The notes under the pieces: model-generated
Seen by the model: only the letters and a program-made list of their open reading frames with translations
Databases searched by the model: none
Told to the model about the DNA's origin: nothing
Position numbers and translations under genes: made by a program
Shown: positions 1 through 19,991 of the stretch, one piece after another
How positions within the stretch are numbered: position 1 is the stretch's first letter
How the letters are laid out: every line of letters begins with the position of its first letter
IMG/VR virus record: IMGVR_UViG_3300048584_000117
Span: 1-26,680 of that record
Length of the DNA: 26,680 bases
DNA from: a virus
Direction: 5' to 3' (one strand)

Positions 1-339
1 AAGGGGAATGGCCATCCCCCTACCGAAGCGGAGAAAGTTTTGCTAGACCGTTTACCCAAGGCGGCGTGGAATCACGCAGTGCCGCTTGGCGGGCGGCAGC
101 CTGGCTATCCGACAAACTACAAAGTGGATTTGGCCTTTGTCGAAAAGCGATTAGCGATCGAAGTCGACGGCTTTTCTCATTGTTCAAACTCCAGAAAAGA
201 GCAAGACCTCAAAAAGACTCAGAAGCTTTCTTCACTCGGCTGGACCGTGTTGAGGTTCACGAACGAAGAGGTTCTGAAGCAAACAGAGACAGTTATTTCT
301 ACGATCTATCAGTCTCTGGGCATCCAAGCTACGTCGTAA
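1..339 (+). CDS. Vsr/DUF559-type endonuclease associated with the terminase intein (5' end outside window)
   Basis: The reading frame is open from the window edge to the TAA at 337-339, giving 112 visible codons. The real start is probably upstream, because the family-like stretch GNGHPPTEAE lies before the first possible start (TTG at 40). The fold signature is PDDEXK/Vsr-like: YKVDLAF (Asp codon at 127), IEVDGFSH (Glu 160, Asp 166, His 178), then a basic helix and the strand GWTVLRFTNEE that ends such domains. Vsr-like (EDxHD) proteins are known as homing endonucleases linked to inteins in split phage genes. The inferred role is therefore double-strand cleavage of intein-less terminase alleles. 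The 3' third shares its DNA with the intein C-terminal segment in another frame. The family call is firm; the link to homing is inferred from context. Confidence 0.8.
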   Translation, partial: KGNGHPPTEAEKVLLDRLPKAAWNHAVPLGGRQPGYPTNYKVDLAFVEKRLAIEVDGFSHCSNSRKEQDLKKTQKLSSLGWTVLRFTNEEVLKQTETVISTIYQSLGIQATS

Positions 340-1364
340 ACGGCGTCTTAGTCCATAACTGCCAATCGTTCCGGGCCTACATAAGAGGCTTGGTCGATGA
401 GGTGATAGCTCCCGCGCTGTTTGACCACGCGGGCTCGCTTTGTCTGACTGGAACACCGGGCCCGGTTCCGGCGGGCTACTTCTATGAGGCGTCGCATAAC
501 CCGGCGTGGGGAAACTTTCACTGGACGATGTTTGATAACCCGTGGCTGGAAAAGAAGTCTGGGATGACTGTGCAGGCTTTGCTAGAGCGGGACCTTGCGA
601 GAAAAGGCGTTAAGGCTGATCACCCTTCGGTGCAGCGCGAGGTATTCGGCCGTTGGGTTTCCGATCCCGATGCCCTCGTTATCAAGTACAACGCGGAGCT
701 TAATCATTTCGATGAGCTCCCGAAAAGTTCCACGTGGAACTATGTTTTCGGCGTCGACTTGGGCTTTGACGATTCGGATGCGATTTCGGTTATCGGTTGG
801 ACCGAAGAGAGCCCAGATTGCTACCTTGTTTATGAGGAAGAGCGTGCAAAGCAAGGGATCACCGAGCTTGCCCAGTGGATTGAGTCCTTAGTCACACAGT
901 TTGAGCCCCTTCGTATCAGAATGGACACAGGTGGACTGGGCAAAAAGATTGCGGAGGAAATCCGCATTCGATTTGCGATCCCTATTGAGGCAGCGGAGAA
1001 GGTTCGAAAGTTTGAATTCATTGAGATCCTAAACGATGCGCTCCGCACCGGAAGGTTTAGAGCTAAGAAAGACGGGCTCTTTGCGCAAGACAGCCAAAAG
1101 CTAGAGTGGGAGCGGGATCCGGATGATCCGTCTAAGCTGAAAATTAAAGACACGTTCCACTCTGACGTGATCGATTCAACTCTTTACGCCTATCGCGACG
1201 CGTTACACTGGTTGCATGAGCCGACAAACCCAAAGCCGTTACCCGGAACGCCTGCGTTCCAAAAAATGGAGGAAGACGAAATGGAAGGTTTTGTGGCAAA
1301 TCAGTTAAGGGACCAAAGAGAATCGACGGGCGGTTTTGATGATTGGTCATCGGCGGGACTTTAG
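66..1364 (+). CDS. terL: Terminase large subunit, C-terminal part preceded by intein C-terminal segment
   Basis: This frame encodes an intein C-terminus ending in His-Asn, then the C-extein from Cys at 360-362. The extein opens with CQSFRAYI and continues with LTGTPGP, a coupling-type motif of terminase ATPases. The C-terminal RNase H-like nuclease shows three acidic sites: GVDLGFDD (Asp codon at 756), RMDTGG (Asp at 924) and FHSDVIDSTLYAYR (Asp at 1164 and 1173). TerL packages DNA through the portal using ATP and cuts concatemers. The N-terminal ATPase with Walker A lies outside the window. The frame is open from base 3, so the true start cannot be fixed. GTG at 66, with a weak AAGG four bases upstream, is only the first start codon in view. 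Splicing is predicted, not shown. Confidence 0.85.
   Translation: MESRSAAWRAAAWLSDKLQSGFGLCRKAISDRSRRLFSLFKLQKRARPQKDSEAFFTRLDRVEVHERRGSEANRDSYFYDLSVSGHPSYVVNGVLVHNCQSFRAYIRGLVDEVIAPALFDHAGSLCLTGTPGPVPAGYFYEASHNPAWGNFHWTMFDNPWLEKKSGMTVQALLERDLARKGVKADHPSVQREVFGRWVSDPDALVIKYNAELNHFDELPKSSTWNYVFGVDLGFDDSDAISVIGWTEESPDCYLVYEEERAKQGITELAQWIESLVTQFEPLRIRMDTGGLGKKIAEEIRIRFAIPIEAAEKVRKFEFIEILNDALRTGRFRAKKDGLFAQDSQKLEWERDPDDPSKLKIKDTFHSDVIDSTLYAYRDALHWLHEPTNPKPLPGTPAFQKMEEDEMEGFVANQLRDQRESTGGFDDWSSAGL
243..359 (+). other. Intein C-terminal segment (blocks F and G)
   Basis: The terminase frame reads YDLSVSGHPSYVVNG and then VLVHN, immediately followed by Cys. This is the standard intein block F and block G, with the penultimate His, the terminal Asn that cyclises and a +1 Cys nucleophile. 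The strongly conserved part is 300-359. The upstream strand (RVEVHERRG at about 246-272) is a plausible but weaker part of the intein fold. It is read in the -1 frame relative to the endonuclease that occupies the same DNA. The N-terminal intein part is not in the window, so a continuous intein and a split intein both remain possible. Confidence 0.85.
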
Positions 1365-1606: not shown

Positions 1607-3485
1607 CTACAAAAGCTTTTCAGATTCAGGCCCGAGCAAAGACTTAACCCCCGCGTCAAAGCGTTGGTGGCTACTTCCAAAGAGCGAACGGCCGGATGCT
1701 ATCGCGTCGGTTGTAAAGTCTCTGTTTAGTCAGCAAACAGCTAGGTTCACTCAAAACGTAGTGTCAGCAAGGCTGTACGGCAATTTGCCTGTTCTAGGAA
1801 CGAACGGGCTTTCGTTCACCCGGATGGCAAGCGCGATCCCTGGCCTGAGAGAGCGAATTAGTTGGAACGTCGTTCAGTCCTGTGTCGACACGGTTACCTC
1901 AAAGATCGCAAAGAACAAACCCCGTCCCCTCTTTCTGACTTCGGGCGGTGACTACCGAATTCAACGCAAAGCAAAAAAGCTCACCAAGTTCACTGACGGA
2001 ATTTTCTATCAGAACCGTGCTTACGAAATGGGAAAGAACGCCTTCCGAGACGGCGCTGTTTGGGGCACCGGCGTGATTCACGTCTTTAGGCGGCATAACA
2101 GGGTTATGTGGGAAAGGGTTCTCCCTGAGGAACTACTGGTTGACGAGATCGAAGCTCTTTATGTTAACCCAACGCAAATTCACCGCGTCAAAGCTATTGA
2201 TCGCGATATTCTGAAGGAAGCATTCCCCGAAAGTCGGAAGCAAATCGAAGGCCTTGATATCGTGAACTTCCGAAGCGGTATCAACACTGGGGCTGTTTCG
2301 GACGTGGTAGAGGTTCGAGAGTCGTATCACTTGCCCTCGGGCCCCGATGCCGATGACGGCCTTCACGCTATCACTATCGACGGGCATGAAATTCTCTCCG
2401 AGAAGTGGGAGCGGCCTTACTTTCCATTTGCATTCTTTCATTGGAACAAAAGACTTTTCGGGTTCTTTGGCCAGGGCGGCGTTGAGCAAATTCAAAGCAT
2501 CCAGGTTGAGATCAATAAGATCCTTTGGATCATGCAGCGATCGCATCACTTGGCTGGCACTTTCAAGATCGCGGTTGAGAACACTGCGAAGATCACAAAA
2601 TCGTTCTTTAACAACGAAATTGGAACGATCATCCCGTTCACGACTACGCCTCCCGCTTATCTGCTACCTCCTATTGTTCAGCCGGAGCTCTATGAGCACT
2701 TAATGCGCCTTACCGCGCAGGCGTTTCAACAGTTCGGTATCAGTCAGCTATCGGCGCAGAGCAAAAAACCAGACGGTCTCGACTCCGGGAAAGCCCTTCG
2801 CGAGTTCAATGATATTGAATCGGATCGATTCATGACTGTGGGGCAGGCTTACGAACAATTCTACCTAGACCTTGCTCGGCTCAGCATTGACGAGGCAAAG
2901 GCGATTGCTAAGGAAACCGGCAATTATAAGGTTGCGGTCCCCGGCTCGAAATTCTTGGAAACGATTGAGTGGAACAAAGTCAGTCTCGACGAGTCGCAGT
3001 ACGAAATGAAGTGCTATCCGACTAGCAGCTTGCCGCAGGATCCGGCAGGCAGACTTCAAACGATTCAAGAGTACATTCAGGCGGGCTTTCTTTCTCCTCG
3101 TTCTGGGCGAAGGCTCTTAGGCTTCCCCGATCTAGAACAGATTGAAACGCTCGCAAACGCGCAAGAGGAATACATTCACAAGGTCTTTGAAGGCATCTTG
3201 GATGCAAAGGACTTAGAGGAAGCGAATACCGCCTACGTTCCTCCCGAGCCGTTTGACGATATGGTTCTAGCGGAAGAACTTGCCATTCAGTACTATACCG
3301 ATGGAAAGATGAATGGGGTTGAGGAGTACAAGCTTGATCTAATGCGTCAGTTTTTAGATCAACTTGAGGTGCTAAAGACTAAAGCGCAAACTCCTCCCGA
3401 GGGAGCATTGCCGCCTGACGGCGGGATGCCTCTAGCCAATCCGGAACCTTTGCCGGTTTCGGACTTGGTGCCCCAAGTAGCATAA
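1596..3485 (+). CDS. Portal protein
   Basis: A 629-residue protein located directly after the terminase and before scaffold and capsid genes. It starts at ATG 1596 with AAGGGG upstream. Portal features seen are ISWNVVQSCVDTVTSKIAK with KPRPLFLT, then FRDGAVWGTGVIHVFR, ERVLPEELLVDEIEAL and later a long helical region around residues 290-420. This layout (clip, stem and wing with an acidic C-terminal tail) matches the P22-type portals of short-tailed phages, which form the dodecameric ring for DNA passage and terminase docking. The last 40 residues are proline-rich (TPPEGALPPDGG) and probably disordered. The assignment comes from recognisable motifs and gene order, not from a search. Confidence 0.88.
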   Translation: MAIDYKSFSDSGPSKDLTPASKRWWLLPKSERPDAIASVVKSLFSQQTARFTQNVVSARLYGNLPVLGTNGLSFTRMASAIPGLRERISWNVVQSCVDTVTSKIAKNKPRPLFLTSGGDYRIQRKAKKLTKFTDGIFYQNRAYEMGKNAFRDGAVWGTGVIHVFRRHNRVMWERVLPEELLVDEIEALYVNPTQIHRVKAIDRDILKEAFPESRKQIEGLDIVNFRSGINTGAVSDVVEVRESYHLPSGPDADDGLHAITIDGHEILSEKWERPYFPFAFFHWNKRLFGFFGQGGVEQIQSIQVEINKILWIMQRSHHLAGTFKIAVENTAKITKSFFNNEIGTIIPFTTTPPAYLLPPIVQPELYEHLMRLTAQAFQQFGISQLSAQSKKPDGLDSGKALREFNDIESDRFMTVGQAYEQFYLDLARLSIDEAKAIAKETGNYKVAVPGSKFLETIEWNKVSLDESQYEMKCYPTSSLPQDPAGRLQTIQEYIQAGFLSPRSGRRLLGFPDLEQIETLANAQEEYIHKVFEGILDAKDLEEANTAYVPPEPFDDMVLAEELAIQYYTDGKMNGVEEYKLDLMRQFLDQLEVLKTKAQTPPEGALPPDGGMPLANPEPLPVSDLVPQVA

Positions 3486-3497
3486 GCGGAGAGCTCT

Positions 3498-3794
3498 TTG
3501 AGTACGCCGAATCATATACCGGGCACGGTCCGTTACTTTACCCACTATCTGACGTTTCCAGACGGTGACGTTTGGTGCAAACAATACCCCTTCGTTCACG
3601 AGTTACAGTTTCAGCTAAAGAACACTCCGTTTAAGAACAGGCCGGATGCAATTCGAGACTTTCTGCAAAAGGGTGAACATCGGTACATAGACCGCAACGG
3701 CCTTATCAACCTAATCCGAATCGACAATGAGCCGGTGCCAGAGAACTGGGGCAACGCTCCGACTGCACTTAATAAACTAAGGAAAAGAAAATGA
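3498..3794 (+). CDS. Hypothetical protein between portal and scaffold genes
   Basis: A 98-residue protein that begins with TTG at 3498, supported by GGAG at 3488-3491. Its last four bases overlap the scaffold start (ATGA at 3791-3794), which indicates coupled translation. The sequence is mixed alpha/beta with several aromatic residues and a basic C-terminus (ALNKLRKRK); there is no signal peptide, membrane segment or known motif. It could be a small capsid-assembly protein given its position. No family is recognised. Confidence 0.7.
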   Translation: MSTPNHIPGTVRYFTHYLTFPDGDVWCKQYPFVHELQFQLKNTPFKNRPDAIRDFLQKGEHRYIDRNGLINLIRIDNEPVPENWGNAPTALNKLRKRK

Positions 3795-4681
3795 GCAATG
3801 AAATGCAAGCGGCCATGGCCCTACTAAACGCGCCGGGGGTTACGCCTTCGGCAACGCCCGCCGCGCCTGTTGCGACGCCCGAAACGCCCGAGGCACCCAA
3901 AGCGCCGACTGACGCGAAGCTCACAGAGTCTACTTCGCAACGCTTTGCAGCACTGGCCCGAAGGGAACAACAGCTAGTCAAGGAGCGTCAAGCGATAGCC
4001 GCGGAGAAAACCCGGATCGCTTCATTAGAGGCAAAGATTAAGGAGCTCACCGAGCAGCAAGAGTCAATTAAACAACAGGCGAGACTAAATCCTCGAAAGG
4101 CGCTAGAATATCTTGGTACGAATTATGAGGATATAACCAATCACTTCCTCAAGGGTGAAGCTGTAACGCCCGAACTGGTTGCCGGAGTAGTCGAAGAAAA
4201 GCTGACTGCATTCCAAAAGCAACAGATTGAGGAAAGGGAAGCCGAAAAGAAGGCAGCCGAAGAAGCGAAACGGTTATCTACTCAGGCCGAAGCCGATAGA
4301 ACGATCAATGAGTTCAAGTCGGACTTGCGGACGTACTTAGATCAAAACAAAGACAAGTATGAGCTTATCAGCTTGTACGACTCGCAAGACGCAGTCTATG
4401 AAACCATTGAACAGTACTTCGCCAAGGAAAAGAAAATCCTTTCCGCTGACGAGGCTGCTGAAATGGTTGAAAAGCAATTAGAGGAATTGGCCAAACGCCT
4501 TAGCGCGACTGAGAAGTATGGCAGCCTCGTGACACCGGCAAAACCGGAGTCCAAAACACCAAACGCGCAGCCCCGCACAATAGATAACTCGTTCAGTGCT
4601 CAATCGTCTGGCTTAAGCGGTCCCGCTAAGACCGAAGCTGAGGCGTTCCAAAGAGCACTAGCGCATTTAAATAACTCTTAG
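3791..4681 (+). CDS. Capsid scaffolding protein
   Basis: A 296-residue, highly charged protein placed immediately before the major capsid gene, the classic scaffold position. Residues 15-45 are a Pro/Ala/Thr-rich disordered leader. Residues 50-105 and 135-175 are strongly predicted coiled coils rich in Glu, Lys, Gln and Ala (for example QQLVKERQAIAAEKTRIASL). A further helical region (about 180-240) leads to a C-terminal tail ending FQRALAHLNNS, the sort of short helical segment scaffolds use to touch capsid protein. It has AGGAAAAG just upstream of ATG 3791. Scaffolds direct procapsid assembly and leave or are degraded on maturation. The call rests on composition and context. Confidence 0.8.
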   Translation: MSNEMQAAMALLNAPGVTPSATPAAPVATPETPEAPKAPTDAKLTESTSQRFAALARREQQLVKERQAIAAEKTRIASLEAKIKELTEQQESIKQQARLNPRKALEYLGTNYEDITNHFLKGEAVTPELVAGVVEEKLTAFQKQQIEEREAEKKAAEEAKRLSTQAEADRTINEFKSDLRTYLDQNKDKYELISLYDSQDAVYETIEQYFAKEKKILSADEAAEMVEKQLEELAKRLSATEKYGSLVTPAKPESKTPNAQPRTIDNSFSAQSSGLSGPAKTEAEAFQRALAHLNNS

Positions 4682-6791: not shown

Positions 6792-7508
6792 ATGGCACTT
6801 GGAAGGTTGACGCTAGCCGAGATCAGACAAGCAGCGCGACAGCGCTCGGATATGGTCAACTCGCAATTTGTCACGGATCCCGAATTCGACTCTTACATTA
6901 ATCAGTCAGCGTATGAACTTTACGATTTAATCATTCAGAAGTACGGCTCTGACTACTACGTTGCAAGCCCACTCGTTTTCACGATTGCGCCAAATCAAGA
7001 CACTCATCCTCTCCCGAACGACTTTTATAAAGGCCTAGGCGTCGATCTCCAAATAAACAACGCGCTAGATCGCTGGGTTCGGCTTAACCGATTCAACTTT
7101 TCTGATCGGAACAGGTTTCAATCTGCGGTTGCGCAGCCAATCTTAGGCCGAACGAACTTACGCTACAGATTTAGAGACAATGTGCTTTGGTTTACGCCTG
7201 TCCCCTCGGCTGGGCTCACGTTCAGGCTCTGGTACATTCCACGGCTCACTGAGCTTGTTCTAGATACCGACGTACTAGACGGGGTTTCGGGTTGGACTGA
7301 GTACGTGATCATCGACGCGGCTATCAAAGCGCTGCAAAAAGAAGAAAGCGACGTAAGTGTTTTGTCTGGTCAAAAGCAGGCAATGATAGCTCGCATCGAA
7401 GCCGCAGCGGAGAATCGCGATGCAGGCAGCCCAAGCACTGTTTCCGACACGGCTGTTATGAGTACCGAGTGGGGTAACGGCGTGGGCGGGTTCTGGGGAG
7501 GCTGGTAA
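6792..7508 (+). CDS. Head-to-tail connector (gp4-like adaptor)
   Basis: A 238-residue protein with a helical N-terminus (LTLAEIRQAARQRSDM, then FDSYINQSAYELYDLIIQKYG), a central strand-rich region and a C-terminal helix with IDAAIKALQKEESDVS. Helical adaptors that bind beneath the portal ring in P22-like phages have this kind of layout, and gene order (capsid, accessory genes, connector, fibre, nozzle) agrees. The C-terminus ends in a Gly/Trp tail (GVGGFWGGW), possibly an arm inserted into a neighbouring protein. A weak GGGGAG lies upstream of ATG 6792. The specific gp4 relationship is an inference. Confidence 0.65.
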   Translation: MALGRLTLAEIRQAARQRSDMVNSQFVTDPEFDSYINQSAYELYDLIIQKYGSDYYVASPLVFTIAPNQDTHPLPNDFYKGLGVDLQINNALDRWVRLNRFNFSDRNRFQSAVAQPILGRTNLRYRFRDNVLWFTPVPSAGLTFRLWYIPRLTELVLDTDVLDGVSGWTEYVIIDAAIKALQKEESDVSVLSGQKQAMIARIEAAAENRDAGSPSTVSDTAVMSTEWGNGVGGFWGGW

Positions 7509-7509
7509 C

Positions 7510-7821
7510 GTGATCCCAAAGTTTTCTCCCGTTCAGTCTGAGGATCGGGTTGTTAATCAGCTACAGGATCGCGTGGCAAAGACTCTAAACTTGGTTGCGT
7601 CGCAGGTTATTTTGGACAGCAATATTTTAAAGTCCGTTGCCCTCGCGGTTGGTGATAACGCGATTCAGCACGGCCTAGGCAGGCCCTTAGTGGGCTGGTT
7701 TTTGGTGCGAGTTCGGGCTGGCACTGTGATTTTCGACAAGCAGGATACGAACGGTTCTCCGGGTGCGACTTTGATTTTGAATAGCTCGGGAACAAATAAC
7801 GTGGATATCTACGTTTTTTAA
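7510..7821 (+). CDS. Hypothetical tail-assembly protein
   Basis: A 103-residue protein beginning with GTG at 7510, with a strong GGGGAGG at 7495-7501 inside the end of the connector gene. The N-terminal 40 residues are helical and include VNQLQDRVAKTLNLVASQ. The remainder is strand-rich with the phrase AIQHGLGRPLVGWFLVRVRAGT and a terminal NVDIYVF. The second half resembles the beta-sandwich end domains found in small proteins between connector and fibre genes in many short-tailed phages. The function is unknown; a minor tail role is likely from location. Confidence 0.65.
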   Translation: MIPKFSPVQSEDRVVNQLQDRVAKTLNLVASQVILDSNILKSVALAVGDNAIQHGLGRPLVGWFLVRVRAGTVIFDKQDTNGSPGATLILNSSGTNNVDIYVF

Positions 7822-7833
7822 AGGGGGATTAAA

Positions 7834-8967
7834 GTGGCAACGCCAAATATGGGTCTGACTCTTCCGGTGCCGACGGTAACGCCCGGTCCCCTCTATGGCT
7901 CTCAGAACAACGCGGCCTTCGAACTCATCGACTCGCACGATCACTCAGTCGGAAGAGGTGTTCCAGTTCGGACGGAGGGTCTCAATATTGATAATGACTT
8001 GCCGCTGCAATCAAACAACGCAACGCTTGTAAGATCGGTGCGATTCCTTCCGAACGCAACCCCATTGGCGCTACCGGCTGACTTGGGATGCGTCTACATT
8101 GCAGGCGGGGATTTTTGGTTTAATAACGCTGCCGGGCAGCAAATTCAGATAACTGCCGGGGGAGCTCTCAACGCTGCTAGCATCGGCGGGATCGGCGGCG
8201 ACTACACTACGTCGACGGCGTCAGTGTTCTATCTTGCGGCTCAGCAAAAGTTCTTCTTTACGCAGAACACTAACAATGCTGCCCTCATGGACTTTGGGGC
8301 GATGACGGTTCGCGCAGCCGGGGTATCGGCAAACGGCGTTACCATTAAGGCCCCAGCGGGACTTGCCGCAAGCTATGAAACAACACTTCCCACGGCTCTT
8401 CCGGCTGATCCCGCAGCTTTGGTTTTGAACAATGCGGGTCTTATCAGGGCAATCATCGGAGCTTTCTTGCCGGTCGGTGCCTTCTTAGACTTTGCGGGTA
8501 CGACAGCTCCCCCAGGATTTTTAGAATGCGATGGCTCGGAAGTATCCCGAACTACCTACGCTGATTTGTTTGCAGTGATTGGCACTATCTGGGGACCGGG
8601 GGACGGCACTACGACGTTCAACCTTCCGGATGCGCGTCGCAGAACGAATATCGGTAAGGGAGGATCTGTTCTTCAGTCGCCCGGTAACATAGTGGGGAAC
8701 GTTGGTGGGGAGCAAGAGCACGTTCAAACGATCAATGAGATAGCGGCGCACGATCATGAAATTAGCGATCCTGGGCATTCGCATCAACAGTTTGTCGGCG
8801 CTGGCGGCGCATCCCTAGTTCCGCAGTCAACTACAGCAAACGTTTTTGCGGGTGCCAATTTCACTGGTACCTCTACCACAGGCGTGATCACTCTTAACTC
8901 GGGCGGAAGCGAACCATTCAACGTGATGCAGCCTTCCATGACTGTAACGCGGTTGATTAAATTCTAA
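7834..8967 (+). CDS. Tail fibre with phage tail collar domain
   Basis: A 377-residue fibre starting at GTG 7834 behind AAAGGGGG. Residues 1-40 (NMGLTLPVPTVTPGPLYG, ELIDSHDHSVG) look like a virion-attachment segment; residues about 60-205 are repetitive beta structure. Residues about 208-270 are a clear tail collar domain (LPVGAFLDFAGTTAPPGF, LECDGSEVSRTTYADLF, FNLPDARRR). A His-rich end domain follows, with AAHDHEISDPGHSHQ, as in long-tail-fibre tips where such His clusters bind metal. It ends in a TAATG overlap with the next gene. The role is receptor binding or a tail collar. Confidence 0.85.
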   Translation: MATPNMGLTLPVPTVTPGPLYGSQNNAAFELIDSHDHSVGRGVPVRTEGLNIDNDLPLQSNNATLVRSVRFLPNATPLALPADLGCVYIAGGDFWFNNAAGQQIQITAGGALNAASIGGIGGDYTTSTASVFYLAAQQKFFFTQNTNNAALMDFGAMTVRAAGVSANGVTIKAPAGLAASYETTLPTALPADPAALVLNNAGLIRAIIGAFLPVGAFLDFAGTTAPPGFLECDGSEVSRTTYADLFAVIGTIWGPGDGTTTFNLPDARRRTNIGKGGSVLQSPGNIVGNVGGEQEHVQTINEIAAHDHEISDPGHSHQQFVGAGGASLVPQSTTANVFAGANFTGTSTTGVITLNSGGSEPFNVMQPSMTVTRLIKF

Positions 8968-11900
8968 TGGGATTAGACAAACAAATAATTCCGATCTCGT
9001 TCGGAACCGGACAGGATACCAAGACTGATCCGAAGCAAGTCGAGCTTGGAACTTTGATAGAGCTCCAAAACGGCATTTTCCCGAGCTTGAAACGTCTTGA
9101 AAAGCGAGACGGCTACGGCCCCTTCATGAGGAACATTGAGGGAACGAGTCAGAGCATAAGCAAAGCCGTAGCAGGGATGACTTTTAAGAATGAGCTTTGT
9201 CTCTTTACTGGAGAGAGGCTCTATTCCTATTCCAAAGCGAGTGATCGGTGGAGCGATAAGGGCCAGGCGGTAAGCTGTTCTGTCTCTGTGACTCCAGTCA
9301 ATCGAAACACCTATGGTCAAACCGCAGCGGATTCGTGTTTGCACCCTTCGGGCGTGTTTGCCTACGCGTGGGAGGACACTCGCGGGGGTATTCGGTATTC
9401 GATTATCGATCAAAGGACGGGGCATAGCATCGTCTCGGATGAGCTCTTAACTTCAATCGGCACAAAGCCCAGGTGCGTTGCGCTTGGTGTTTACGTTCTT
9501 CTCTTTTATTTGGATGAGGCGGCAAACCGAATCATCTACCACGCAATTTCAATCAACTCCCCTTCTGTTTTGGGGCCTCTAGTCGAGTTTGCTCTGAATC
9601 TGTCCAATAACAACGCATACGACGTGTGTGTGAACTCAGAACGGGTGTTTGTCACCTGGGACACGACAGAGGTTGGGAACGCTGTTGCAATTCGCTACAT
9701 AAATTCATTTTTGACTGTGTCGGCCGTGGTCTTACTTGGCGCTCAGGTTGCTGAGCGAATCACCGTCACTAGCGATGCGACAAATCAGAACGTTTGGATT
9801 GCTTACCGGAACGGGAGCACGGTAAGGGCCGCTTGTTTTGACTACTCCTTGAATTCTGTGCGCGCGTTTACGACGTTGGAAACAGGCGTAGTGGACGTGG
9901 AGAACATCACGGCCTCGGCTCAGAATCAAACCGTCACGGTCTTTTATGAATTGCCTGCAGCGCTAAAGAGCAATCACTTTGTCAGAGTAACGACCTGTCC
10001 TCAAGTAGGGGCAATCGGAACTCCGGCTACCATGCTGCGATCCGTTGGGCTTGGAAGTAAGTCTTTCATCTATGAGGGAGCAATCTACCTCGCGGTAGTT
10101 CACGACTCTGCGCTGCAGCCTACCTATTTCATCGTCAATGCGACTGGCTTCATTGTCGCAAAGATTGCTTCCAATCTGGCAGGCGGTTTAGTCACGAGTC
10201 GTTCTCTGCCGCAGGTCTATGGGACGGGAACTGCGACAAGGTTTGGGTTTGCGTATTTGATTCGAGACACTTTGACCACGATCAACGGGGCAGTGTTCAC
10301 TCAAACAGGCGTTCAGGCAGCGACAGTTAATTTCAATACCTCAAACACGTACCTGAGGGCTGAGATCGCAAGCAATCAGCATATTGCGGGCGGCATCGTG
10401 AACATGTACGACGGGGCAAACCTCGTTGAGCACGGGTTCAATTTATTTCCAGAGGGGCTTACGGTAACTCCGGCTACAACGGGCGGAGGTTTGAATGCGG
10501 GAACGAGACTTTATTACGCCGTCTACACTTGGACCGATAACCAGGGGCAGATTCACCGCTCTGCACCCAGCATTCCCATTCAGGCTGTTAACACAGTAGG
10601 AACGACGCTAAACATAACCTGCGACTTAACTGCTGGAAGCCCCACGGCTACGGGAATCGCTTCTACAGCAGGCGTCTTTATAGGAATGATTTTTAGTGAC
10701 GGGACTACTAGCGGACGAGTTATCGCCTTCACGTCTAGCACGATCACTATTGACCAGAACTTTCTGACCACGGCACCGGGAGTCGTGATTGCGAGTACTA
10801 CCACGAGCTCAAACACTCTTTCTTTGCCCACGCTTCGATTGACCGCAAAGAACAACGCGAGAAGTCCAGTAACGATCGTGGTCTATCGAACGCAGGATTT
10901 GGGGCAAACGCCGTATCAGGTGAGTTCAATATCTTCACCCATTTTCAATGATCCAAGCGTCGACACGGTTTCGTTTGTGGACACGACTTCGGACTCTGTG
11001 ATTATCGGCAATCCGATTCTGTACACGTTTGGCGGGGAAATTGAGAACATTTCCCTACCCGCAACCTCTGTGCTGATTCCCTATAAGAACAGAATGATCG
11101 CTTTGCCGAGCGAGTCAGATACCTCGTTCTGGTATTCAAAGGAGTCACCTCCGGGCGTGCCCATTGAATTCAATGATGGCTTTGTGCAGAACGTCGTTCA
11201 GCAAGGCGGGGGACTCACCGGGGGAGCCGAGCTAGACGATAAGCTGATTCTGTTCAAGCGGCAGAACATTCTCGCCACGGCTTTTGCGGGCCCTCTAAAC
11301 ACGGGAGCTCAAAACGACGTTGCGCAGCCTGAGTTGATACCTACAGACTCCGGGTGCGACAATCCAAGGAGCATCGTTCTGACTCCAGTGGGACTTATGT
11401 TCCAATCCCTAAAAGGGATCTACCTACTTGATCGCTCCCTTTCCGTTTCCTACGTCGGTGCAGCGGTTGAGAAGTACAACGATCAGAAAATCACTAGCGC
11501 TATCCTCGTTTCGAATACGAACCTCGTTATCTTTACGCTAGAGAACGGGCTTGCACTCACTTACGACTACCTAATTAAGCAGTGGGGAGAGTTCTCAAAT
11601 ATCGCGGCCGTGGATGCGGTCTTGTTTGAGAGAAAGCACACGTTCTTTACCCGATTTGGTGTCGCGAATCAGGAAACGCCTGGGCTTAACACCGATAACG
11701 GGGCCCTAGTGCCTTTAAAGCTGACCACGGCCTGGATCTCTTTGGCTGGGTTGCAGGGTTTTCAGAGGATCTATCACGTTCTTCTTTTGGGTGAGTACAA
11801 ATCCCCTCATACGCTACGGGTTCAAGTCGCTTACGACTTCAATCCCACAGTCGTGCAAGATGAGCTCATCGATGCGACGGCTGTCTGTGCGACTCCAAAC

Positions 11901-18012: not shown

Positions 18013-18342
18013 ATGAGCGGCCGCAAGAACTTCCTAGCTCCCCACAAAGTTATCACCGACGGCGATATGAGCCTGACTCTCACCGCACCTCTTACCGATA
18101 TTTCCTACATGGACAATCTTACCTTGCAAGCAGTCTGGACGGGCGATGCGGTCGGACGCTTTGGAGTAGAGGGATCGCACGATGGAACGAACTGGGTTGA
18201 ATTCGTATTCAGCCTAGCCGCGACAGGCTCCCCACTTCTCATCGATATGAATCAGCTTTCGTTTCCCAAGATGCGATTTGTGTACACGCCTGACACTGGC
18301 ACTGGGGTTCTAAACGTAACCGTTTCAGGAAAGATGCTCTAA
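18013..18342 (+). CDS. Small beta-rich structural protein
   Basis: A 109-residue protein with a near-perfect AAGGAGG at about 17998-18004 before ATG 18013, the best ribosome-binding site in this part of the window, suggesting high expression. It is predicted all-beta: MSLTLTAPLTDISYMDNL, AVGRFGVEGSHDGTNWVEF and a closing GVLNVTVSGKML. The SHDGTNWVEF phrase resembles sandwich domains of virion accessory proteins. It ends in an ATGA-type overlap with the adhesin gene (last base shared). No named family is recognised; it is likely a tail or head-surface protein. Confidence 0.65.
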   Translation: MSGRKNFLAPHKVITDGDMSLTLTAPLTDISYMDNLTLQAVWTGDAVGRFGVEGSHDGTNWVEFVFSLAATGSPLLIDMNQLSFPKMRFVYTPDTGTGVLNVTVSGKML

Positions 18343-19556
18343 TGAGTACCTTTGTACGATTCCCAACAGTATCTGGTGGCGGTGGCGGCGCAGTAGACAG
18401 CGTCAACGGGCAAACCGGAATCGTCGTTTTGGATAAGTCTGATATTGGCTTAGGCAACGCTGATAATACTTCTGACGCAAACAAGCCGATTTCAACCGCG
18501 ACACAAACAGCGCTAGATCAAAAACAAGACTTAGGGGAGCTTCAAGCAGCTCTTTATGCATCGGGAATAGACGGGGACGTAACGTTTTCTTCTGGCACGA
18601 TCACTTTGGATCGCGATCGTTATTATAACAACCTGACTGTCGAGGGTACGGCCTCTCTCGTTACGGGACAGCACAGAGTTTTCGTTCGAAACATTTTAAA
18701 TTTAGATGCGGCTCCCGCAAACGCAATTGTTGCGCAAACTTCTAATGGAAATACCGCCGTTGGCACTGCGGCGGGAGTTCAGGCAGCAAACATTGTTGCT
18801 GCAAATCTGGGCGTTGGAACTCGTGGAGTGATTGGTGTTGTAGGAGGAATTAATGCGGGTGCGGCTGGGACGGCGGGCGGCGCAACGGCCGTATCAGTAG
18901 GTCAGCTAGGCGGCGTCGGCGGGGCTGGAGGCTTAGGTTCTGCAGGCGCGGGAGGCGCAGGCGGTGCAGCTCCGACAATCACAGCTACCTTACGGTTGCA
19001 GGGCTATAAACAAGATATCTTGCGAGGCGCTGTTATCGCCTCTGGCGGATCTGCGGGTTCGGCTGGCGGCGGCGGCGGCGGTGACGGGGTAGCCGGGGGA
19101 GGATCTGGATCAAGTGGATCAGGCGGCGGTATCTTGTGGCTTGCGGCTCGAATCATATCGCGCACTGGAGCAACGGCAGCGGGAGCTATAAATGCAAACG
19201 GAGGTAACGGCGGCGGCGGCGGCACTCCTGCGGGAGGCAACCGAGGTGGCGGCGGCGGTGGTGCAGGCGGCGGCGGCGGCTTTGCTTTTGTGTTCACAGA
19301 GGCGTGCATCGGGACTGCTGCTACCAACTTGATCACAGCAAACGGCGGTAACGGTGGTAACGGCGGTAACGGACTTGGTACCGGAGTTGGTGGAGCGGGT
19401 GGCGGTGGCGGTTCGGGCGGTAGAATTTTTTATTCTGAGACAAGTACAAATACTTTTGTTTTGGTCGAAGGCACCGGGCCCGTCGCGGGCGGCGCTGCAA
19501 GTGGAAATACCGGGGGAACTGGAGCGACTGGGAACGCTTGCGTGTTAACAGTTTAA
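18342..19556 (+). CDS. Glycine-rich tail fibre/adhesin
   Basis: A 404-residue protein. Residues 1-15 carry a VRFP-type motif (MSTFVRFPTVSGGGGG) also found in the lectin-like gene at 20003. Residues 17-60 hold the standard fibre linker: VNGQTGIVVLDKSDIGLGN and ADNTSDANKPIST, widespread in tail fibres. Residues about 70-130 are beta-rich. Residues about 145-400 hold long Gly/Ala/Asn runs (NGGNGGGGGTPAGGN, GGGGGGAGGGGG), similar in composition to the polyglycine sandwich of T-even S16-like adhesin tips, and interleaved with short apolar strands. This makes receptor recognition the likely role. The adhesin-tip parallel is by composition, not proven homology. Confidence 0.8.
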   Translation: MSTFVRFPTVSGGGGGAVDSVNGQTGIVVLDKSDIGLGNADNTSDANKPISTATQTALDQKQDLGELQAALYASGIDGDVTFSSGTITLDRDRYYNNLTVEGTASLVTGQHRVFVRNILNLDAAPANAIVAQTSNGNTAVGTAAGVQAANIVAANLGVGTRGVIGVVGGINAGAAGTAGGATAVSVGQLGGVGGAGGLGSAGAGGAGGAAPTITATLRLQGYKQDILRGAVIASGGSAGSAGGGGGGDGVAGGGSGSSGSGGGILWLAARIISRTGATAAGAINANGGNGGGGGTPAGGNRGGGGGGAGGGGGFAFVFTEACIGTAATNLITANGGNGGNGGNGLGTGVGGAGGGGGSGGRIFYSETSTNTFVLVEGTGPVAGGAASGNTGGTGATGNACVLTV

Positions 19557-19568
19557 TTGGGTGTGACT

Positions 19569-19991
<423 letters not shown>

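Follow-up and report, generated by a model that had tools for sequence, protein, structure and literature searches.

A nested endonuclease frame at the start of the viral fragment

The window, that is the whole stretch of DNA analyzed here, is the linear viral fragment IMGVR_UViG_3300048584_000117 of 26,680 bases. Two reading frames are open from its start, and all of the features described below lie on the + strand. Frame 1 is open over positions 1-339, with 112 codons and a TAA stop at 337-339. Frame 3 is open over positions 3-1364 and reads through FYDLSVSGHPSYVVNGVLVHN|C, with the Asn codon at 357-359 and the +1 Cys codon at 360-362. The first base of the record already falls inside the intein, and the upstream half of the terminase and intein is therefore unreadable in the window; it presumably lies upstream of the contig.

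Frame 1 (1..339) encodes the C-terminal catalytic domain of a nested EDxHD/DUF559 homing endonuclease, an assignment based on the ORF itself, a match to Pfam DUF559 (4e-17), alignment with full-length relatives and the fold of the homologue in locus L004. The same alignment places the 5' part of the gene, with a zinc finger and an NNPM region, upstream of the contig end. The EDxHD residues, E54, D56, H60 and D69 of the translated fragment (160..207), correspond to invariant alignment columns and are all retained. By analogy with EDxHD enzymes, named as a phage homing endonuclease family (PMC3943268), these four residues would be catalytic.

Frame 3 encodes the C-terminal part of an intein in the terminase frame (3..359), which comprises a linker, the penultimate strand of the splicing domain and a C-terminal block ending in His-Asn. 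It was assigned from a match to TIGR01443 (2e-5, above the family cut-off), from homology with the L004 linker and from the L004 Hint model. The linker spans about 3-236 and is recognizable by its homology with L004 (SDKLQSGF / SLQLQSGF). It is followed by a dual-coded core at 237..264, which is read as GWTVLRFTN in the endonuclease frame (238-264) and as RLDRVEVHE in the intein frame (237-263). The C-intein block FYDLSVSGHPSYVVNGVLVHN with its +1 Cys occupies 297..362, with His-Asn at 354-359 and the endonuclease stop codon inside the block. The C-extein, a terminase large subunit that begins CQSFRAY after the Walker B Asp-Glu, extends over 360..1364 and was identified by a match to phrog_2 (terminase large subunit, 4e-19) and by the intein-free homologues in L003 and L002. 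No match to the window terminase was found in the cultured-phage collection.

A sequence-only reading of this DNA had proposed an intein C-terminus within a terminase and a Vsr-like endonuclease, both open over 1-339 and offset by one base, with the last strand and helix of the endonuclease sharing bases with the strands of the intein. The ORFs, the profile matches and the fold comparisons reported below bear out each of these points, and the absence of stops from the intein frame is likewise beyond chance, as that reading had supposed.

Two other regions of the window were noted. A second putative homing endonuclease, with HNH_3 and AP2 domains, is encoded free-standing near the other contig end (25313-25846, +). 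The ORFs at 19557-19991 (+) and 18342-19556 (+) have a long Pro-Glu repeat and a Gly-rich body and are likely tail-fibre region proteins.

Host gene and intein form one frame in relatives

A first scan, with the endonuclease fragment as query, gave 55 loci, and a second, with the alignment as query, gave 54 further distinct sequence contexts, some of them on contigs of the first scan. In 56 of 56 core-motif loci, a count that includes the window and one cultured phage, the C-intein is read in the -1 frame relative to the endonuclease, as part of a long uninterrupted ORF. The register was identical and the ORF continuous in 54 of 54 distinct second-scan loci, four of which end in VSNC, were missed by the automatic label and were read as continuous. 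Over both scans and the phage collection at least 77 distinct nested core contexts (phage loci) were counted, the collections being rich in near-copies and the loci of the two scans overlapping. Dozens of independent contigs, as well as cultured phages, show this same register, which rules out a one-base assembly error in 1-339, the finding that the sequence-only reading had named as able to overturn it. Plasmid matches resemble ordinary DUF559 genes.

Relatives with enough upstream DNA have a single ORF that runs from the host gene through the N-intein, linker and C-intein back into the host gene. The host gene is continuous through the intein in all complete relatives; in the window this continuity is seen on the C-side. 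The best complete homologue, L004, has the same terminase and the same insertion site as the window. Its ORF at 2200-4509 encodes the terminase, the intein (2665-3465, with Cys1 at DE|CFHPDT) and the C-extein, and the endonuclease is encoded at 2909-3457 in the +1 frame. An RNA intron in place of an intein was rejected, as no Rfam family was found in L004 2000-4600 and the frame is open throughout. The host ORFs of L056 (1982-6085) and L049 (572-7897) each appear to bear a second, ordinary in-frame intein.

We consider it very probable that the window is the 3' end of a mobile intein of the terminase Walker B motif, encoded as a continuous ORF, with a complete homing endonuclease nested in its +1 frame. 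In the proposed arrangement the intein would be inserted in Walker B (DE|CQSF), would form one coding sequence with the terminase in the terminase frame, and would excise itself from the terminase through protein splicing. A gene for a zinc finger, NNPM region and EDxHD/DUF559 nuclease would sit between the halves of the splicing domain in the +1 frame, would be translated from an internal start on the shared mRNA, with a ribosome-binding site of its own, and would stop within the C-terminal splicing block. Read in the intein frame, the endonuclease stretch would give a stop-free, mostly disordered linker. The endonuclease would presumably cut intein-free Walker B DNA, and recombination would then copy in the whole composite.

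The sequence-only reading had instead explained the offset by a split gene with a separate C-half or by a -1 frameshift joining the two parts, and had allowed for an N-intein and terminase ATPase in the endonuclease frame. The relatives argue against all three: the intein frame is unbroken in L004 and the other relatives examined, so that neither a separate C-half start nor a frameshift is required, the endonuclease has its own start, and the N-intein of complete relatives is in the C-intein frame instead. A fractured terminase would have its N-half and N-intein end upstream, a free-standing endonuclease, and a C-half translated separately and joined by trans splicing. The window taken alone is compatible with this account, the intein profile matches gp41-1 inteins, and endonucleases of this superfamily are reported to adjoin split inteins in work cited in PMC12350094. 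However, every distinct locus examined is free of a stop and of a separate C-half. Upstream of the C-intein in the window there is also no conspicuous start codon accompanied by a ribosome-binding site, and the intein frame of the window avoids stops, an avoidance that a split gene would not require. A fractured terminase is thus very improbable, and the endonuclease is better described as a nested gene because the host-intein ORF of its relatives is continuous. No fractured gene, with host and intein as two separately translated ORFs, was encountered among the relatives examined, all of which are continuous. Nor did the scans of these collections return this endonuclease-intein pair in an in-frame or a split form, which is not proof that such forms are absent.

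Putative internal initiation of the endonuclease

The predicted endonuclease starts lie a median of 4.5 codons past the last stop of the endonuclease frame. Their Shine-Dalgarno energy is -6.1 kcal/mol, versus -3.8 kcal/mol for control codons, and none of 2000 control means was as strong. The nearest relatives of the window have a TTG start behind AGGAG or GGAGG. Internal initiation of the nested endonuclease is therefore likely, although a good Shine-Dalgarno site was not found at about a third of the loci.

These starts also bear on a programmed -1 frameshift, which would fuse the endonuclease frame to the C-intein and make the endonuclease a fused intein domain. The offset is indeed -1, and the window contains C AAA AAG at about 212-218. 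In all complete relatives, however, the N-intein shares the frame of the C-intein and not that of the endonuclease, so that frameshifting would fuse parts that do not belong together. Moreover, the endonuclease frame usually opens just a few codons ahead of its own start, and a frameshift from the N-half would have hardly any space in which to occur. We regard frameshifting as exceedingly improbable.

Both frames are constrained

A stop in the intein frame requires an endonuclease codon ending in T followed by a codon beginning AA, AG or GA. When the synonymous endonuclease codons of the window were permuted, 4.95 intein-frame stops were expected and none is present (P 0.0012); with codons drawn from the usage of the phage itself, 6.8 were expected (P 0.0004). 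T-ending codons precede AA, AG or GA codons in 0 of 28 cases in the window, versus 25 of 83 elsewhere, and in 0 of 1491 cases across the loci compared, versus 1464 of 4040 elsewhere. None of 34 non-redundant loci has an intein-frame stop across the endonuclease gene, with 2.6-20 expected in each. A long open second frame is not a general trait of DUF559 genes, to judge from five free-standing bacterial chromosomal genes, a small control set mostly from G+C-rich hosts, in which the corresponding -1 ORFs have only 13-141 codons.

Variability by codon position changes along the intein. In the N-intein it is.33/.24/.51 by intein codon position, with position 3 the most variable, as is also the case between the exteins of relatives. 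Across the nested gene it is.49/.32/.30, and the most variable position is intein position 1, which is the wobble (third) position of the endonuclease; after the endonuclease stop it is.13/.10/.52, with intein position 3 again the most variable. The Vibrio pair L062/L064 differs by.15/.02/.00 in the nested body and by.01/.02/.15 in the N-intein. Differences between the window and L004 (30/19/50) fall mainly at the third codon position of the endonuclease, as they do against other relatives. The product of the nested stretch is constrained mainly in the endonuclease frame, and the avoidance of stops together with the codon-position pattern indicates that both proteins are under selection.

Predicted folds and the shared core

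The intein alignment of 34 relatives has invariant Cys1, H62, V265, H266 and N267. These include the position-1 nucleophile, and the block B Thr/His, C-terminal His-Asn and +1 Cys/Ser expected of an intein are present as well; the window itself has HN|C. The L004 intein matches Pfam Intein_splicing (7e-13), and in its AlphaFold model residues 1-100 and about 221-267 are confident (block pLDDT 78-98) and form a Hint fold, with the nested stretch between them disordered (pLDDT 43-57). This model matches gp41-1, BIL and other inteins in structure comparison, as the profile does gp41-1 inteins. The conserved residues and the profile match suggest an intein that removes itself by protein splicing.

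The E, D, H and D of the EDxHD nuclease are invariant in alignments A2 and A4. The AlphaFold model of the L004 endonuclease has a pLDDT of 93. It matches the DUF559 structure 3hrl with Z 13.1, I-Bth0305I (3r3p) with Z 12.1 over 91 residues at 2.2 A (VIA-align), and Vsr (1cw0) with Z 9.8; 3r3p was also the first Foldseek match, and I-Bth0305I was matched by profile search too.

The core that joins the two proteins is a single stretch coding for GWTVLRFTN in the endonuclease and for R-V-[DE]-S-[VI]-E-[IV]-[YH], for example RVDSVEVY, in the intein. In the L004 models it forms a Hint strand (intein residues 225-235) and a nuclease strand with the start of a helix (residues 148-159). The core Leu is encoded by TTG and the core Arg by AGG or AGA in 62 of 77 nested contexts each, versus CTG/CTC and CGC/CGT, respectively, in the five free-standing genes. 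The scan patterns contain WTVLRFTN, and the conservation of that peptide is therefore partly built in by the search; this bias does not extend to the codon choice or to the openness of the second frame. One tentative reading, to which we give somewhat less than an even chance, is that the two genes are naturally entangled: a single ancestral event would have fixed the nuclease strand GWTVLRFTN and the splicing strand RVDSVEVY on a common set of bases, after which the composite would have spread as a unit among unrelated ATPase genes; the need of the host for splicing would thereby shield the 3' end of the nuclease from decay.

Insertion sites, putative mobility and possible decay

At most loci the intein interrupts Walker B between Glu and Cys (DE|C), the host genes coding for terminases, SNF2/ResIII-type helicases and clamp loaders. 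The endonucleases nearest to that of the window occur in a terminase, in SNF2-type helicases and in a clamp loader. Other sites are used in L046, L049 and L054-L056. The last three carry the same kind of element at RLMA|C of a large phage protein, for which Pfam gave no match in L055; their endonuclease is longer and has multiple zinc fingers.

Intein-free terminases preserve the empty site, as YLDE|CQSF in L003 and YIDE|CGSF in L002. Inteins are 99.2% identical within exteins of 89-90% identity, and 94.4% identical within exteins of 80-83%. Intein identity in excess of extein identity, together with intein-free alleles, is the sequence pattern expected of homing, and on this basis the endonuclease probably spreads the intein.

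Shortened inteins with truncated endonuclease frames were found in L044 (4706-5293, 196 residues), L049 (4697-5257, 187 residues) and L057 (1293-1811, 173 residues), the last of which has also lost the catalytic Glu. All three inteins are intact, as would be expected of a required intein with a dispensable endonuclease, and the three loci are possible stages of decay. They would also favor the view that the endonuclease frame of the window is itself a decayed remnant within an otherwise ordinary mini-intein. The window, however, retains all four EDxHD residues and the complete domain, and its differences from relatives, as described above for L004, lie mainly at the third codon position of the endonuclease. 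Such decay in the window is very unlikely.

Comparison with known systems and annotation

The out-of-frame HNH endonuclease of the ShiLan domain is the nearest published precedent. Like the elements described here, the ShiLan domain/Pacc40 insertion (Arsenault, Gosselin and Gogarten 2025, PMC11855218) carries a homing endonuclease out of frame within an insertion that reads through in the host frame, and it occurs with a patchy distribution in phage DNA-processing genes. Its endonuclease is of the HNH type, no splicing domain was found, and the insertion is thought to be retained in the protein (PMC11855218), whereas here a Hint intein, which would remove itself from the protein, is combined with an EDxHD nuclease whose 3' end also codes for strands of the splicing domain. 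For frequent overlapping frames in actinobacteriophages, PMC11855218 cites a 2025 preprint on non-canonical actinobacteriophage inteins. As represented there, the preprint shares with the present case phage inteins and overlapping frames, and the layout it describes may be this one or one like it.

Large LAGLIDADG or HNH inteins of the canonical type resemble the present element in having a Hint domain interrupted at the usual site between the splicing parts, in insertion at conserved sites and in homing. Their endonuclease, however, is an in-frame domain of the intein protein, whereas here it would be made as a separate protein from another frame. I-Bth0305I (PDB 3r3p) shares the catalytic fold and the EDxHD residues but is encoded in a group I RNA intron, unlike the endonuclease in the intein linker described here. 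Dassa et al. 2009 reportedly described fractured phage DNA-metabolism genes with split inteins, in which an EDxHD/Vsr-like endonuclease gene lies between the intein halves. In that arrangement the host gene is broken and splicing is in trans, whereas here host and intein share one frame and the endonuclease overlaps them. The papers covered by the literature search contained no description of an intein overlapped by an EDxHD endonuclease.

The arrangement would be a third way for an intein to carry a homing endonuclease, neither fused in frame nor placed beside a split gene, the endonuclease being overprinted, in a different frame, on most of the linker and extending into the splicing domain. 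If the predicted folds hold, it would be a large natural example of dual coding, with two catalytic proteins of different folds using common bases, and a natural counterpart to engineered sequence entanglement. It may also represent a route between large inteins, mini-inteins and fractured genes.

The layout is present in 40 cultured-phage records (Vibrio, Pseudomonas, Corynebacterium). Six of these were inspected, and in each a single long CDS is annotated (as a helicase, or as hypothetical/ATPase) and the endonuclease is unannotated; judged from these six records, the endonuclease family has been overlooked by annotation. Phages CP-T1, MR14 and phi673 (L059, within the NC_019457.1 helicase CDS 6842-9823, L060 and L061) bear such an unannotated nested endonuclease, MR14 being a Pseudomonas phage and phi673 one that can be grown on C. 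glutamicum ATCC 13032, a laboratory host.
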